Source of the DNA: Polytrichum commune
Taxonomy: Eukaryota; Streptophyta; Polytrichopsida; Polytrichales; Polytrichaceae
Reading direction: 5' to 3'
NCBI GenBank assembly: GCA_950295325.1
Contig: OX485809.1
Span: 40,765,081 to 40,829,080 of the forward strand
DNA: 64,000 nt
In this document: positions 10,390 through 60,149 of the stretch, piece by piece
Layout: each line of letters opens with the position of its first letter
Position numbering within the stretch: the first letter of the stretch is position 1
The notes under the pieces: model-generated
Database searches by the model: none
The model's input: only the letters and a program-made list of their open reading frames with translations
What the model was told of the DNA's origin: nothing
Position numbers and translations under genes: made by a program

Positions 10390-10605
10390 CAGTGATCGGG
10401 GGGATTTTTGGGCAGAATCGGTTGAGATCCTAGTGTTTGCAAGTCCAACCGGTTACATGTTGACAGCCTCCGGTTTTCCTTTACTAAACTGGGGTATATT
10501 CTATAAACTCCTCTAAAATGATCCTGCAGTCTTGAACTTCAACCGGTTATTCCTCAAACTCAACCGGTTCATATGTAACTAACTGCCGGTTCTCCCCGAT
10601 CATTG
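10390..10605 (-). mobile_element. hAT-A MITE, copy A1
   Basis: Starts CAGTGATCGGGG and ends CTCCCCGATCATTG. Flanking octamers TAACAAGG (10382-10389) and AAACAGGG (10606-10613) match at 6 of 8. It is 216 bp and contains three AACCGGTT palindromes plus degenerate versions. It is non-coding. Orientation is opposite to A3 and A4. The terminal CARTG fits the hAT CARNG pattern and TSD length 8 fits hAT. Confidence 0.85.
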
Positions 10606-14820: not shown

Positions 14821-15056
14821 TCAAACTCAACCGGTTCATTTGAAACTAACTCGAATTCAAGAAGTTGGAGAGTGCCGCTGGAACAATCTCCTCCTGCAAT
14901 CTTGAACTTCAACAAGTGTTTTCTCAAACTCAACCGGTTCATTTGAAACTAACTCGAATTCAAGAAGTTGAAGAGTGCCGCTGGAACAATCTTCTCTTGC
15001 AATCTTGAACTTCAACAGGTGTTTTCTCAAACTCAACCGGTTCATTTGACGACTGC
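14821..15056 (+). repeat. 103-bp tandem repeat related to hAT-A interior
   Basis: TCAAACTCAACCGGTTCATT begins at 14821, 14924 and 15027, giving a 103-bp period and about 2.2 units. About 55 bp of each unit matches the hAT-A MITE end region (tcttgaacttcaac ... ctcaaactcaaccggttc). Either a hAT-A fragment was captured and amplified here, or both descend from the same parent element. Confidence 0.85.
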
Positions 15057-33895: not shown

Positions 33896-34998
33896 ATTGG
33901 GAATAGGCGCCTCTACTATACATGTGCATGTGATGCCTCAAAGTTACTAGCAAATGAGAGCTCACAATTCATCGAAACACTTGAGATGCTCATTGCACCC
34001 ATGACGTGGGACTCTCATCAAGTGCTAACTTATGGAAACGTGCCATCCTAGCCGTGCTAAAGACAGGAGGGTTGGTGATGTCCTTCTATGGCTAACTCTA
34101 GTGGCCACCCTTCTTTCATGTGATCACAATTCGACTCCTTTGTCCAGCCCTAGACTCACTTCACGTAATTGTAACTTAAAAACTTATTCACATTGACAAG
34201 TGAGTTTCAAGCAAAATTCTTCTATAATACTACCATATTATTAACGATTTTAAGGTAGTCGGACCTGATTCAATTACTTCTCGTTAAAATCACACACCTA
34301 TTTTTGCATGGTGTGTGGTTGGTGTGGATCTAAGAACGGATACCGAAAAGCTATTAAAAGAAATCATATGACATGCCTAGAATTTGTTAGTTATTCCGAG
34401 TTCAATAATCAATGTCGCATAATTGGAGAGGCTTCTAAGATCATTCAATTCTTAATTGTACTTGGGATATTTGGGATGAAAACATGTGAGCTTGTTGACG
34501 ATGGTTTGGACTTTTTTGGAGGTCCAAATTAATGCATATTTAGTGTAAATGGATGTGAGCATCAGTTAGATGGGTGTGATTAATGCATCAGTTAGGACGT
34601 TTCCAGAAGTTAGCACTTGATGGGAGTCCCACGTCATGGGTGCAATGAGCTCCCCGACCAGTGATTGAGGAGATTTTTGGGCATAACCGGTTGAGATCCT
34701 AGGGCTTGCAAGTCCAACCGGTTATATGTTGACATCCTCCGGTTTTCCTTTATTGAACTGGGGTATATTCTATAAATTCCTCTAAAATGATCGGTAATTT
34801 CCATGCAGTCTCGAACTTCAACCGGTTATTTATCAAACTCAACCGGTTCATTTGTAACTAACTGCCGGTTCTCCCCGATCATTGTCCCAGACTGCAGCTG
34901 ATTAACATATCAAGGGTGCTAATAAATTATGAGCTCTCATTTGCTGGTAACTTTCAGGTGTCACATGCACATGTATAGTAAAGGCACCTATTCCCAAT
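33896..34998. repeat. Long inverted repeat (foldback-like), interrupted by hAT-A
   Basis: The left arm (33896-34046) reads ATTGGGAATAGG ... TACATGTGCATGTGA ... CCCATGACGTGGGACT. The same text in reverse complement appears in two pieces on the right (34597-34658 and 34885-34998), separated by MITE A2. Further out, GAAACGTCCTAACTGATG at 33812 is mirrored near 34552-34600. The loop holds a match to dispersed repeat D. It resembles a MULE/foldback-type element, but no TSD was found. Confidence 0.7.
34659..34884 (-). mobile_element. hAT-A MITE, copy A2
   Basis: Starts CAGTGATTGAGGAGA and ends CTCCCCGATCATTG. TCCCCGAC (34651-34658) and TCCCAGAC (34885-34892) match at 7 of 8. It is 226 bp with four AACCGGTT sites, inserted in one arm of the long inverted repeat. 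Confidence 0.9.
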
Positions 34999-54818: not shown

Positions 54819-55255
54819 CAATGAATAGGAAGTACCGATTGCTGGTTACAAATGAACCAGTTGAGTTTGAGAAACAAGTGGTTAAAATTCAAAACCTCAT
54901 GAAAATCACCAATCATTTTGGAGGAATTCATAGACTATAGCCTTGCCCACACCTACTAGTGGTCATAGCCAGTGGATGACTTCCACCAGTTGGGGGCACT
55001 TCATTGTTGCTTTTAGCTAGCGACTAGATGTAATGTACTCAATTTTGAGCTTTTTCTAGCTAAAAGCAACGAAAAGGTGGCCCCCTAATGCTGGGAACCA
55101 CCCACTGGCTCTGACCACCAACAAGTAGGAGTAGAGCATATTTCCCCCAATTCAATAAAGAAAAACCGAAAGATGTCAACATGGAACTTGTTGGACTATG
55201 AAACATTAGGATCTCCACCGACTAGCTTAAGCACAAAAACCCCCTGAACATTGAT
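54819..55255 (+). mobile_element. hAT-A MITE, copy A5, with a nested insertion
   Basis: Starts CAATGAATAGGAAGTACCG and ends near ACCCCCTGAACATTGAT. GCCCTATC flanks both sides exactly (54811-54818, 55256-55263). The sequence follows A3/A4 but is diverged (AACCAGTTGAG for AACCGGTTGAG) and is split by about 180 bp of unrelated palindrome. It is the oldest-looking full copy, since no AACCGGTT survives. Confidence 0.88.
54952..55129. mobile_element. Palindromic MITE nested in hAT-A copy A5
   Basis: CCTACTAGTGGTCATAGCC ... GTTGCTTTTAGCTAG is mirrored by CTAGCTAAAAGCAAC ... GGCTCTGACCACCAACAAG. Arms are about 70 bp. It falls between 'ggaattcata' and 'catatttccccc', which are adjacent in other hAT-A copies. 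Its own TSD is unclear (AGACTATA versus AGAGCATA is one possibility). Confidence 0.75.
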
Positions 55256-55326
55256 GCCCTATCAACCCCAAAGGAAGCTTCCCCCCTCCCCAAAGTTCAC
55301 TCGGTGGGGAAACTGACCACCCCATC

Positions 55327-56880: not shown

Positions 56881-57270
56881 ATATAACATAGTGCCGTGTG
56901 TGTGTGGGTGGATGGTTAGCGTGGGTCACACTAATTTTCTACACAAGGTGGAATTAGTGTGGGGTCCAAGACTCCCCGGATCTTCCCTTAAGTGTCTAAG
57001 AAGATTCCCGACCAACACATTGAACGTTAGTTGTAGGATGAAAGTAGCGTCAAATGAATATTCATCCACGCTAGTTTTCTAGAACAACAATCAACCAATT
57101 CATTTGTAACTACACTAAGTAGTCGTGTCATTGTGGGCAAGAATAAAATTTTAGGGCCCGTGATATTTCTCATGATGAAAATTAATATGGGTCACATTAA
57201 AATCAACACCAACAGTAAATTTATAGTAGAAAATTAGTGTGGTCCACATCATGATTACGTTTGAAAAGTA

Positions 57271-57442
57271 GCCGGTTGAGTTCAAGACTTCAAGAAGATT
57301 GCCAATCTTCTTTGAGGAATCCATAGCATGTTCCCCACTTTTGATAAAGAAACAGCCGGAAGATGTCAACATGGAATTGGTGGGACTCGGAAACACTAGG
57401 CTAGCATCGACCCTTTCTGCCCAAAAACCTCCCTGGATATTG
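57271..57442 (+). repeat. Diverged hAT-A-related fragment
   Basis: GCCGGTTGAGTTCAAGACTT, then GGAAGATGTCAACATGGAA, then TGCCCAAAAACCTCCC follow the order of copies A3/A4, ending at the expected ATATTG terminus. The left end could not be found. Confidence 0.6.
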
Positions 57443-57469
57443 GTTGAGAGCTCCGCAAGAAGTTGAACT

Positions 57470-58096: not shown

Positions 58097-58329
58097 CAAT
58101 GATCGGGGAGAACCGGCAGTTAGTTACAAATGAACCGGTGGAATTGGGGAAAGAACCGGTTGAAGTTCAAGAGTGCAGGAAAATTACCCATCATTTTAGA
58201 GGAATTTGTTGAAGAATATACCCCGATTTAATGAAGGAAAAGCGGAGGATGTCCTCTAACATGTAACCGGTTGGACTTTCAAACACTCGGATCTCGACCA
58301 ATTGTGCCCTAAAATCCCCCCGACCACTG
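58097..58329 (+). mobile_element. hAT-A MITE, copy A3
   Basis: Starts CAATGATCGGGGAGAACCGG and ends CCCCCCGACCACTG. GCTTCGCC (58089-58096) and GCTTCGTC (58330-58337) match at 7 of 8. It is 233 bp with two perfect AACCGGTT sites. Confidence 0.92.
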
Positions 58330-58404
58330 GCTTCGTCCACGATGGAGGATAAGTTTAGCACGCATCCCTAGCCCGCCCCCTTCCCCCAACGTGTAACTAC
58401 ACTC

Positions 58405-58751: not shown

Positions 58752-59337
58752 TTGGAAGAAATATTGGGTTCTCTTTTTAATGAAGGGGGAGAACCGGCTG
58801 TTGCACTGCTTATCCCAGTGACTGAGTGAGTGTCAATGATCGGGGAGAACCGGCAGTTAGTTACAAATGAACCGGTTGAGTTTGAGAAATAACCGGTTGA
58901 AGTTCAAGACTTCAGGAAAATTACCGATCATTTTAGAGGAATTTGTAGAATATACCCCAATTTAATGAAGGAAAACTGAAGGATGTCAATATGTAACCGG
59001 TTAGACTTGCAAACACTAGGATCTCTACCAATTATGCCCAAAAATCTCCCCGATCACTGGTGAGTGTGTGCGTGCTACTACCTATTTGGAGTGGGGTTAT
59101 ATGCAGTGCAAGAACGGCGGAGTTCGACTTTGTAGTCTACAAAGTTCAGTAGGTTGTTTGGACATTAGAAGAACATGCACTTTGACGTTGGCTTGATGAA
59201 ATATTACATTCTCGTCAAGTGGTTCTAGCAATGTGTAATTTCGAATAGTGACACGCATATCGGGATGATCAGTGTAGGTCCGCATGAACTGGCTGCGTTC
59301 GAGAAAAGTAGCGATTGTTTGAGAGGAATATATATAC
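58752..59337 (+). repeat. Tandem duplication, unit 1 (contains hAT-A copy A4)
   Basis: TTGGAAGAAATATTGGGTTC through GAGAGGAATATAT matches unit 2 base for base with scattered changes, once the 226-bp MITE and one 8-bp TSD are set aside. The units are head to tail with no spacer. Confidence 0.9.
58834..59059 (+). mobile_element. hAT-A MITE, copy A4 (reference copy)
   Basis: CAATGATCGGGGAGA at the left and CTCCCCGATCACTG at the right are inverted repeats. GTGAGTGT flanks both sides exactly (58826-58833, 59060-59067). It is 226 bp with three perfect AACCGGTT palindromes and no coding capacity. The adjacent unit 2 lacks it and keeps a single GTGAGTGC/T site, which fixes the boundaries. Confidence 0.96.
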
Positions 59338-59686
59338 TTGGAAGAAATTTTGGGTTCTCTTTTTTAATGAAGGGGGAGAAATGGCTGTTGCACGGATTAT
59401 CCCAGTGAGTGAGTGAGTGCGTGCGTGCTACTACCTATTTGGAGTGGAGTTATATGCAGTGCAAGAATGGCGGAGTTCGACTTTGTAGTCTACAAAGTTC
59501 AATAGGTTGTTTGGACATTAGAGGAACATGCACTTTGACGTTGGCTCGATGAAATATTACATTCTCGTCAAGTAGTTCTAGCAATGCGTAGCTTCGAATA
59601 GTGACATGCTTATGGGGATGATCAGTGTAGTTACGCATGAGCCGGTTGCGTTTGAGAAAAGTAGCGATTGTTTGAGAGGAATATAT
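59338..59686 (+). repeat. Tandem duplication, unit 2 (empty site)
   Basis: Same sequence as unit 1 without the MITE. The target region reads CCCAGTGAGTGAGTGAGTGC, where unit 1 minus element and one TSD reads CCCAGTGACTGAGTGAGTGT. The short minus frames in both units (59097-59285 and the end of 59450-59860) are duplicated relics, not genes. Confidence 0.9.
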
Positions 59687-59799
59687 GTGGAATATGCCTC
59701 CCATTAGTAAGGAAAACCGAAAGACCACAACATGGAACCACCAGTTCGACTTGGAAGAGGGTGTCGACCGGTTCTGCCCAAAAACCTCCCGGGACATTG
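59616..59799 (+). repeat. Diverged hAT-A-related fragment at duplication boundary
   Basis: GCCGGTTGCGTTTGAGAAAA, AAACCGAAAGACCACAACAT and TCTGCCCAAAAACCTCCCG follow hAT-A order and end at ACATTG. Unit 1 of the tandem duplication breaks off inside its first part (at 59337), so the duplication junction lies within this fragment. Confidence 0.6.
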
Positions 59800-60149
59800 C
59801 TTTCCTTGCAGTGAATATCGAGGAAAGGGAATATATATATACACACGTAGCTGTTTCCAAGGATGCTTTATGATGCTTACTTGAGTTTGAGCCCCACTAC
59901 CATCGCCCGAGGTGAATGTTGATTATTCAATGGTGTGATTCTTGTTATTTTTAGATGATTTGACCCCATAATCAAAAACAAGGATGTTGAATTAGACAAG
60001 CGGGACTGAGCGGGGATTAGTTTATCACAAATATGTGTGGGTCATGGTTTTTCTAAACTCCTTTGTACCTCTGTAATGTTGGTGGGGGGTCCAACCCAAA
60101 GAGGTGGGGTGTTTAGCCCTAGCCAACATGCTCATCCTTATGGTTGTAA

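Follow-up and report, generated by a model that had tools for sequence, protein, structure and literature searches.

BraHAT-1 and BraHAT-2, two hAT MITEs of Brassica, are described as short, non-autonomous elements with high copy numbers, 8-bp target site duplications (TSDs), and related empty sites (PMC3991616). The use of empty sites as evidence of transposition is standard (PMC3991616). Such related empty sites are called RESites in PMC2213677, and the term "paralogous empty site" is used in PMC4495683 and others. A table for rice gives 8-bp TSDs and CA ends for hAT (PMC4423477), and the target consensus reported for Hermes, a member of hAT, is nTnnnnAn (PMC2803484).

Here, the element A4 of Polytrichum commune is described. 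It lies in a window of 64,000 nucleotides, the whole stretch of DNA that was analysed (C7:40765081-40829080 of a 408-Mb assembly; seven contigs total about 406 Mb). A4 shares with BraHAT-1 and BraHAT-2 the properties listed above, a likeness of features alone, but its empty site is a tandem neighbour within one genome. The logic is that of the paralogous-empty-site method and there is no difference in principle; here the host sequence is a relative of the element.

A Tandem Duplication with One Filled and One Empty Unit

As the earlier note on this DNA had claimed, 58752-59686 holds two head-to-tail copies of a segment some 350 bp long (Table 1). Between the two units, 59060-59333 matches 59413-59686 at 93% over 274 nt, and 58774-58832 matches 59361-59419 at 92%. 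The note also placed a 226-bp element with exact flanking octamers in unit 1, and GTGAGTGT is indeed exact on both sides of A4.

Table 1. Positions of A4, the two tandem units and the surrounding relative in the window.
Feature	Position	Strand	Remark
Tandem unit 1, filled	58752..59337	+	352 bases without the element and one TSD
Tandem unit 2, empty site	59338..59686	+	349 bases
Element A4, 226 bp	58834..59059	+	no ORF of at least 150 aa
Left TSD of A4, GTGAGTGT	58826..58833	+	exact octamer
Right TSD of A4, GTGAGTGT	59060..59067	+	exact octamer; 8/8 match to left TSD
Left terminal inverted repeat of A4, CAATGATCGGGGAGA	58834..58848	+	15 bp
Right terminal inverted repeat of A4, CAGTGATCGGGGAGA on the - strand	59045..59059	-	15 bp
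Empty-site octamer of unit 2, GTGAGTGC	59413..59420	+	differs by one base from GTGAGTGT
Older long-form relative of the A4 family (probable)	59365..59799	+	left end TAATGAAGGGGGAGA
Long-form left end in unit 1, TAATGAAGGGGGAGA	58778..58792	+	same end as at 59365

The pairwise alignment of 58752-59337 with 59338-59686, proposed in the earlier note, is gapless at the site and shows neither extra bases nor a footprint there. With the element and one octamer removed from unit 1, it has 348 columns and 25 substitutions, 16 of which are transitions. The sole gap column falls some 60 columns to the left of the insertion site, in a T-run; at the site no base is gained or lost. No element bases are left in unit 2 in this alignment. 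The octamer of unit 2 had been said to be the same as that of unit 1. Unit 2 does have one octamer and no element, but the octamer reads GTGAGTGC, one base off GTGAGTGT, and a second substitution lies 4 bp to its left (C at 58822, G at 59409). The units are thus equal in length at the site, yet not letter-identical. Read as tetranucleotides, the joined target is GTGA CTGA GTGA GTGT GTGC GTGC in unit 1 and GTGA GTGA GTGA GTGC GTGC GTGC in unit 2. The count is six in both, and the TSD spans two tetranucleotides.

The octamer GTGAGTGT occurs 4 times in the window against a mean of 1.92 in shuffled windows, and 14 of 100 shuffles reach 4. Rarity of the octamer was rejected as evidence, since by itself it is not rare; it gains its meaning from its position at both ends of a multicopy element.

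Outside the window, the other copies of the duplicated unit among the matches listed are partial and at most 80-81% identical. For the left flank together with the start of the unit, the matches listed comprise only the sequence itself, unit 2, and one 41-bp stretch on C6. Both searches scored only the best candidates and skipped common words. A near-perfect 19-base palindrome, ACTTTGTAGTCTACAAAGT, is present mid-unit at 59127-59145 and 59480-59498, and it belongs to a widespread segment present elsewhere at 70-80%.

Ends and TSDs of the Family across the Genome

The genome search with A4 gave 42 rows, the best 40 of 4949 first-look candidates (a rough count) having been scored. From this search 39 loci were fetched, and 20 more came from a second search that started from another copy; the copies are thus best matches to two queries and not a random sample of the family. 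The copy C1:26086460, listed in the second search, was left out of the sample. Rows of family alignments were dropped below 150 columns for the TSD tabulation and below 180 for the state comparison and the target-preference counts. For the 61-copy TSD tally and the self-insertion counts, rows below 200 columns or 85% identity were dropped. A spurious second L001 row is contained in the majority sequence of the state comparison and was removed by the later cut-off.

In 43 of 61 copies besides A4 the two flanking octamers are identical (8/8); 12 copies agree at 7 positions, 4 at 6, one at 5, and one at 3 (L014, where a one-base shift is visible), so that 55/61 agree at 7 or 8 positions. When left and right octamers of different copies are paired as a control, the mean agreement is 2.4 positions and at least 7 agree in 4 of 1892 pairings. 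Because of these 55 other copies, the length of 226 bp and the 8-bp TSD are family properties established without the tandem pair. The claim that the ends and the TSD length of A4 are fixed is borne out at the tandem locus and, independently, by the family. The family is short and non-coding, with many near-uniform copies carrying terminal inverted repeats (TIRs) and TSDs, as expected of a MITE. The copy closest to A4 among the matches listed is L001 (97%), and most of the others listed are at 93-95%.

Three further copies are present in the window, at 10390-10605, 34659-34884, and 58097-58330. They are about 88-91% identical to A4, and their flanking octamers agree at 6, 7, and 7 of 8 positions, respectively. 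Shorter or more diverged matches are found at 54819-54942, 55140-55256, 57259-57444, and 14892-15048, several of which form a cluster in the 5 kb to the left of A4. Elsewhere, L020 (G000:C3:2629150-2629900) contains two oppositely oriented family copies separated by about 80 bp, both with a perfect 8-bp TSD of their own, and L099 (G000:C2:17343932-17344667) contains two copies in the same orientation, at most 310 bp from start to start.

Relationship to hAT Transposons

The TIRs of the family are 15 bp long, CA(A/G)TGATCGGGGAGA, and are short and start with CA as in hAT. The TSD has the 8-bp length of hAT in A4 (8/8) and, at the agreement given above, in the family. In the target octamers, T is seen at position 2 in 20/40 and A at position 7 in 21/40. 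Pooled, these are 41/80 (P 1.3e-4 if the base frequency is taken as 0.31), an effect that is weak in size. As in Hermes, the TSD is 8 bp, and the most frequent base is T at position 2 and A at position 7. The preference in the A4 family is weak, however, and the octamer of A4 itself has T at position 2 but G at position 7. The TSD length, the CA...TG ends, and the weak nTnnnnAn preference are together consistent with the membership of the A4 family in hAT. The assignment to hAT-A in the earlier note was firmer than these features, which fit hAT; a transposase gene flanked by the same ends was not found in the 28 loci examined.

hAT transposase domains are numerous in the genome: a search for PF05699 lists 150 matches among 1060 candidates. 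The 28 eight-kb loci (12 + 16) are a non-random choice from these 150, favouring long frames or a high score. None of them (0/28) has a transposase between family ends, and for this reason the mobilising enzyme is only inferred. Family copies or fragments occur near the PF05699 matches of L055, L068, L071, L074, L076, L079, and L080, and weak traces near those of L067 and L078, with the transposase never inside. L055 is the only locus with both a left-type and a right-type TIR (at most 3 mismatches), but they are in the wrong order, and it was rejected as the partner. In L081, the segment 2029-6785 contains a transposase domain between perfect 12-bp ends, CAGTGTTGGTCT, with the TSD GTTGATAC. 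Its ends, however, diverge from those of the A4 family after CAGTG. L081 2029-6785 and L072 2661-4585 are probable hAT elements of other families, with near-perfect 12-bp ends and exact 8-bp TSDs.

The Host Segment Is Probably an Older Relative of A4

The sequence TAATGAAGGGGGAGA, at 58778 and 59365, shares 12/15 bases with the terminal repeat of the family. The right 144 bp of the segment starting at 59365 (59656-59799) share about 70% identity with 58916-59059, the right part of A4. Sequence like the middle of the unit (about 59421-59650) is found at 70-80% in many other places, and in L021, L023, and L025 it runs on into the right part of the family. L022 is a 444-bp long form with the left end of the family and an exact TSD, ATCAAAAG (8/8); its right end is shortened, and its terminal repeats agree at only 5/15 bases. 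Among 14 loci searched for long forms elsewhere, L022 is the only one with the family left end and an 8/8 TSD. The kinship between the host sequence and its insert is observed directly. Based on the family left end, the likeness of the right part, and the 444-bp form of L022, the segment 59365-59799 probably represents an older and longer relative of the A4 family. The octamers beside it (59357-59364 and 59800-59807) match at only 5/8 positions, so a TSD was not counted as demonstrated for it. Most of the duplicated segment is made up of the left part of this long form, a point that the earlier note overlooked. Whereas unit 1 breaks off within the long form, unit 2 runs on as far as the right end of the latter.

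The sister copy of A4, L001 (G000:C3:42244680-42245305), is also inserted within another copy of the family, which the earlier note likewise passed over. When its flanks are joined, 185 positions align to the element, and the alignment crosses the junction without a gap there; L001 is a second, independent paralogous empty site. L004 likewise lies within another family copy, with an alignment over 45 positions. In the first sample, A4 included, family sequence is present in a flank of 3/41 copies versus 18/2000 control 100-mers. In the enlarged sample without A4, the junction is spanned in 2/61 copies versus 1/600 control 200-mers, which were taken from the 28 transposase loci and not from the random genome. 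An insertion of the family into its own relatives above chance, by self-targeting or through a shared target motif, seems rather doubtful on these counts. It is treated as a lead only, because the cases are few, the control is non-random, and the pattern was noticed post hoc.

Order of the Duplication and the Insertion

A4 and L001 share 7 states against the family majority and differ at 6 positions, which the majority state assigns as 2 changes in A4 and 4 in L001. The two private states of A4 recur in 12 and 4 other copies, and 2 is therefore an upper bound. On the assumption that A4 dates back to the split of the units (25 changes in 2 x 348), finding at most 2 changes in its 226 bp has P 0.024, and the comparison over two branches (6 in 452 versus 25 in 696) yields P 0.015. 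Ten outgroup segments assign 9 unit differences to unit 1 and 5 to unit 2, leaving 11/25 unassigned. The one-branch test gives P 0.18, 0.09, and 0.04 with 8, 10, and 12 unit-1 changes, and is not significant with the 9 assigned (P between 0.09 and 0.18). All these tests assume equal rates, and some of the divergence of the units may be older than the duplication if the recombining alleles already differed. The earlier note regarded the order, duplication and then insertion, as proved. With at most 2 private substitutions in A4 against 25 between the units, this order is the more likely one and is favoured, though not proved, the one-branch test being not significant.

The explanation that we consider likely, with good confidence, is that the tandem duplication already existed when a hAT-like non-autonomous MITE entered its unit 1 by cut-and-paste. 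Before that, the locus would have carried an older long form related to the family, and 26-27 bp of its flank together with its left part would have been duplicated in tandem. A4 would then have landed in the left copy, copying 8 bp of the target on both sides. We infer both the earlier date of the duplication and the agent, a hAT transposase supplied in trans.

If the insertion came first, an unequal recombination between a filled and an empty allele could also give one filled and one empty unit. The final structure would be exactly alike, and the pair alone does not discriminate between the two histories. After such an exchange A4 could not be younger than the split of the units, however, and the 2 versus 25 changes (P 0.024) speak against it; the one-branch test does not reach significance. 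Recombination of this kind is considered unlikely. It is very improbable that haplotypes with and without A4 were joined head to tail by the assembly. The assembly is a single unphased one, but the units are only about 350 bp long and differ at 25/348 positions. Moreover, unit 1 stops within the long form and unit 2 reaches its right end, which is unexpected for two whole alleles.

Another possibility is that both units were once filled, and that A4 left unit 2 precisely or the leftover octamer was lost by slippage. Precise excision is reported to occur and to be inseparable from insertion or absence by comparison alone (PMC4423477). For mPing, which belongs to another superfamily, precise excision is described as aided by TSD microhomology (PMC4561436). 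The site suits such a loss, being made of six GTGA/GTGC-type tetranucleotides with a TSD two of them long. The absence of a footprint, on which the earlier note relied, holds at the unit 2 site, but the argument is weaker than it was taken to be because in this target a leftover octamer could slip away without trace. On the other hand, unit 2 is free of element bases, it has as many tetranucleotides as unit 1 when joined, more events are needed, and A4 appears younger than the split of the units. Excision from unit 2 is quite improbable; the best reading, as it needs fewer events, is that the site of unit 2 was never filled, with A4 inserted into unit 1 alone.

This hAT-like insertion of a small transposon is a clear but ordinary example, and the known understanding of such elements is unchanged. 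Tetranucleotide targets weaken footprint arguments. The ends and the TSD of a large MITE family are fixed by these data, and from the tandem pair one insertion can be usefully dated in relative terms. Seemingly plain duplicated DNA around a transposon can be transposon too.
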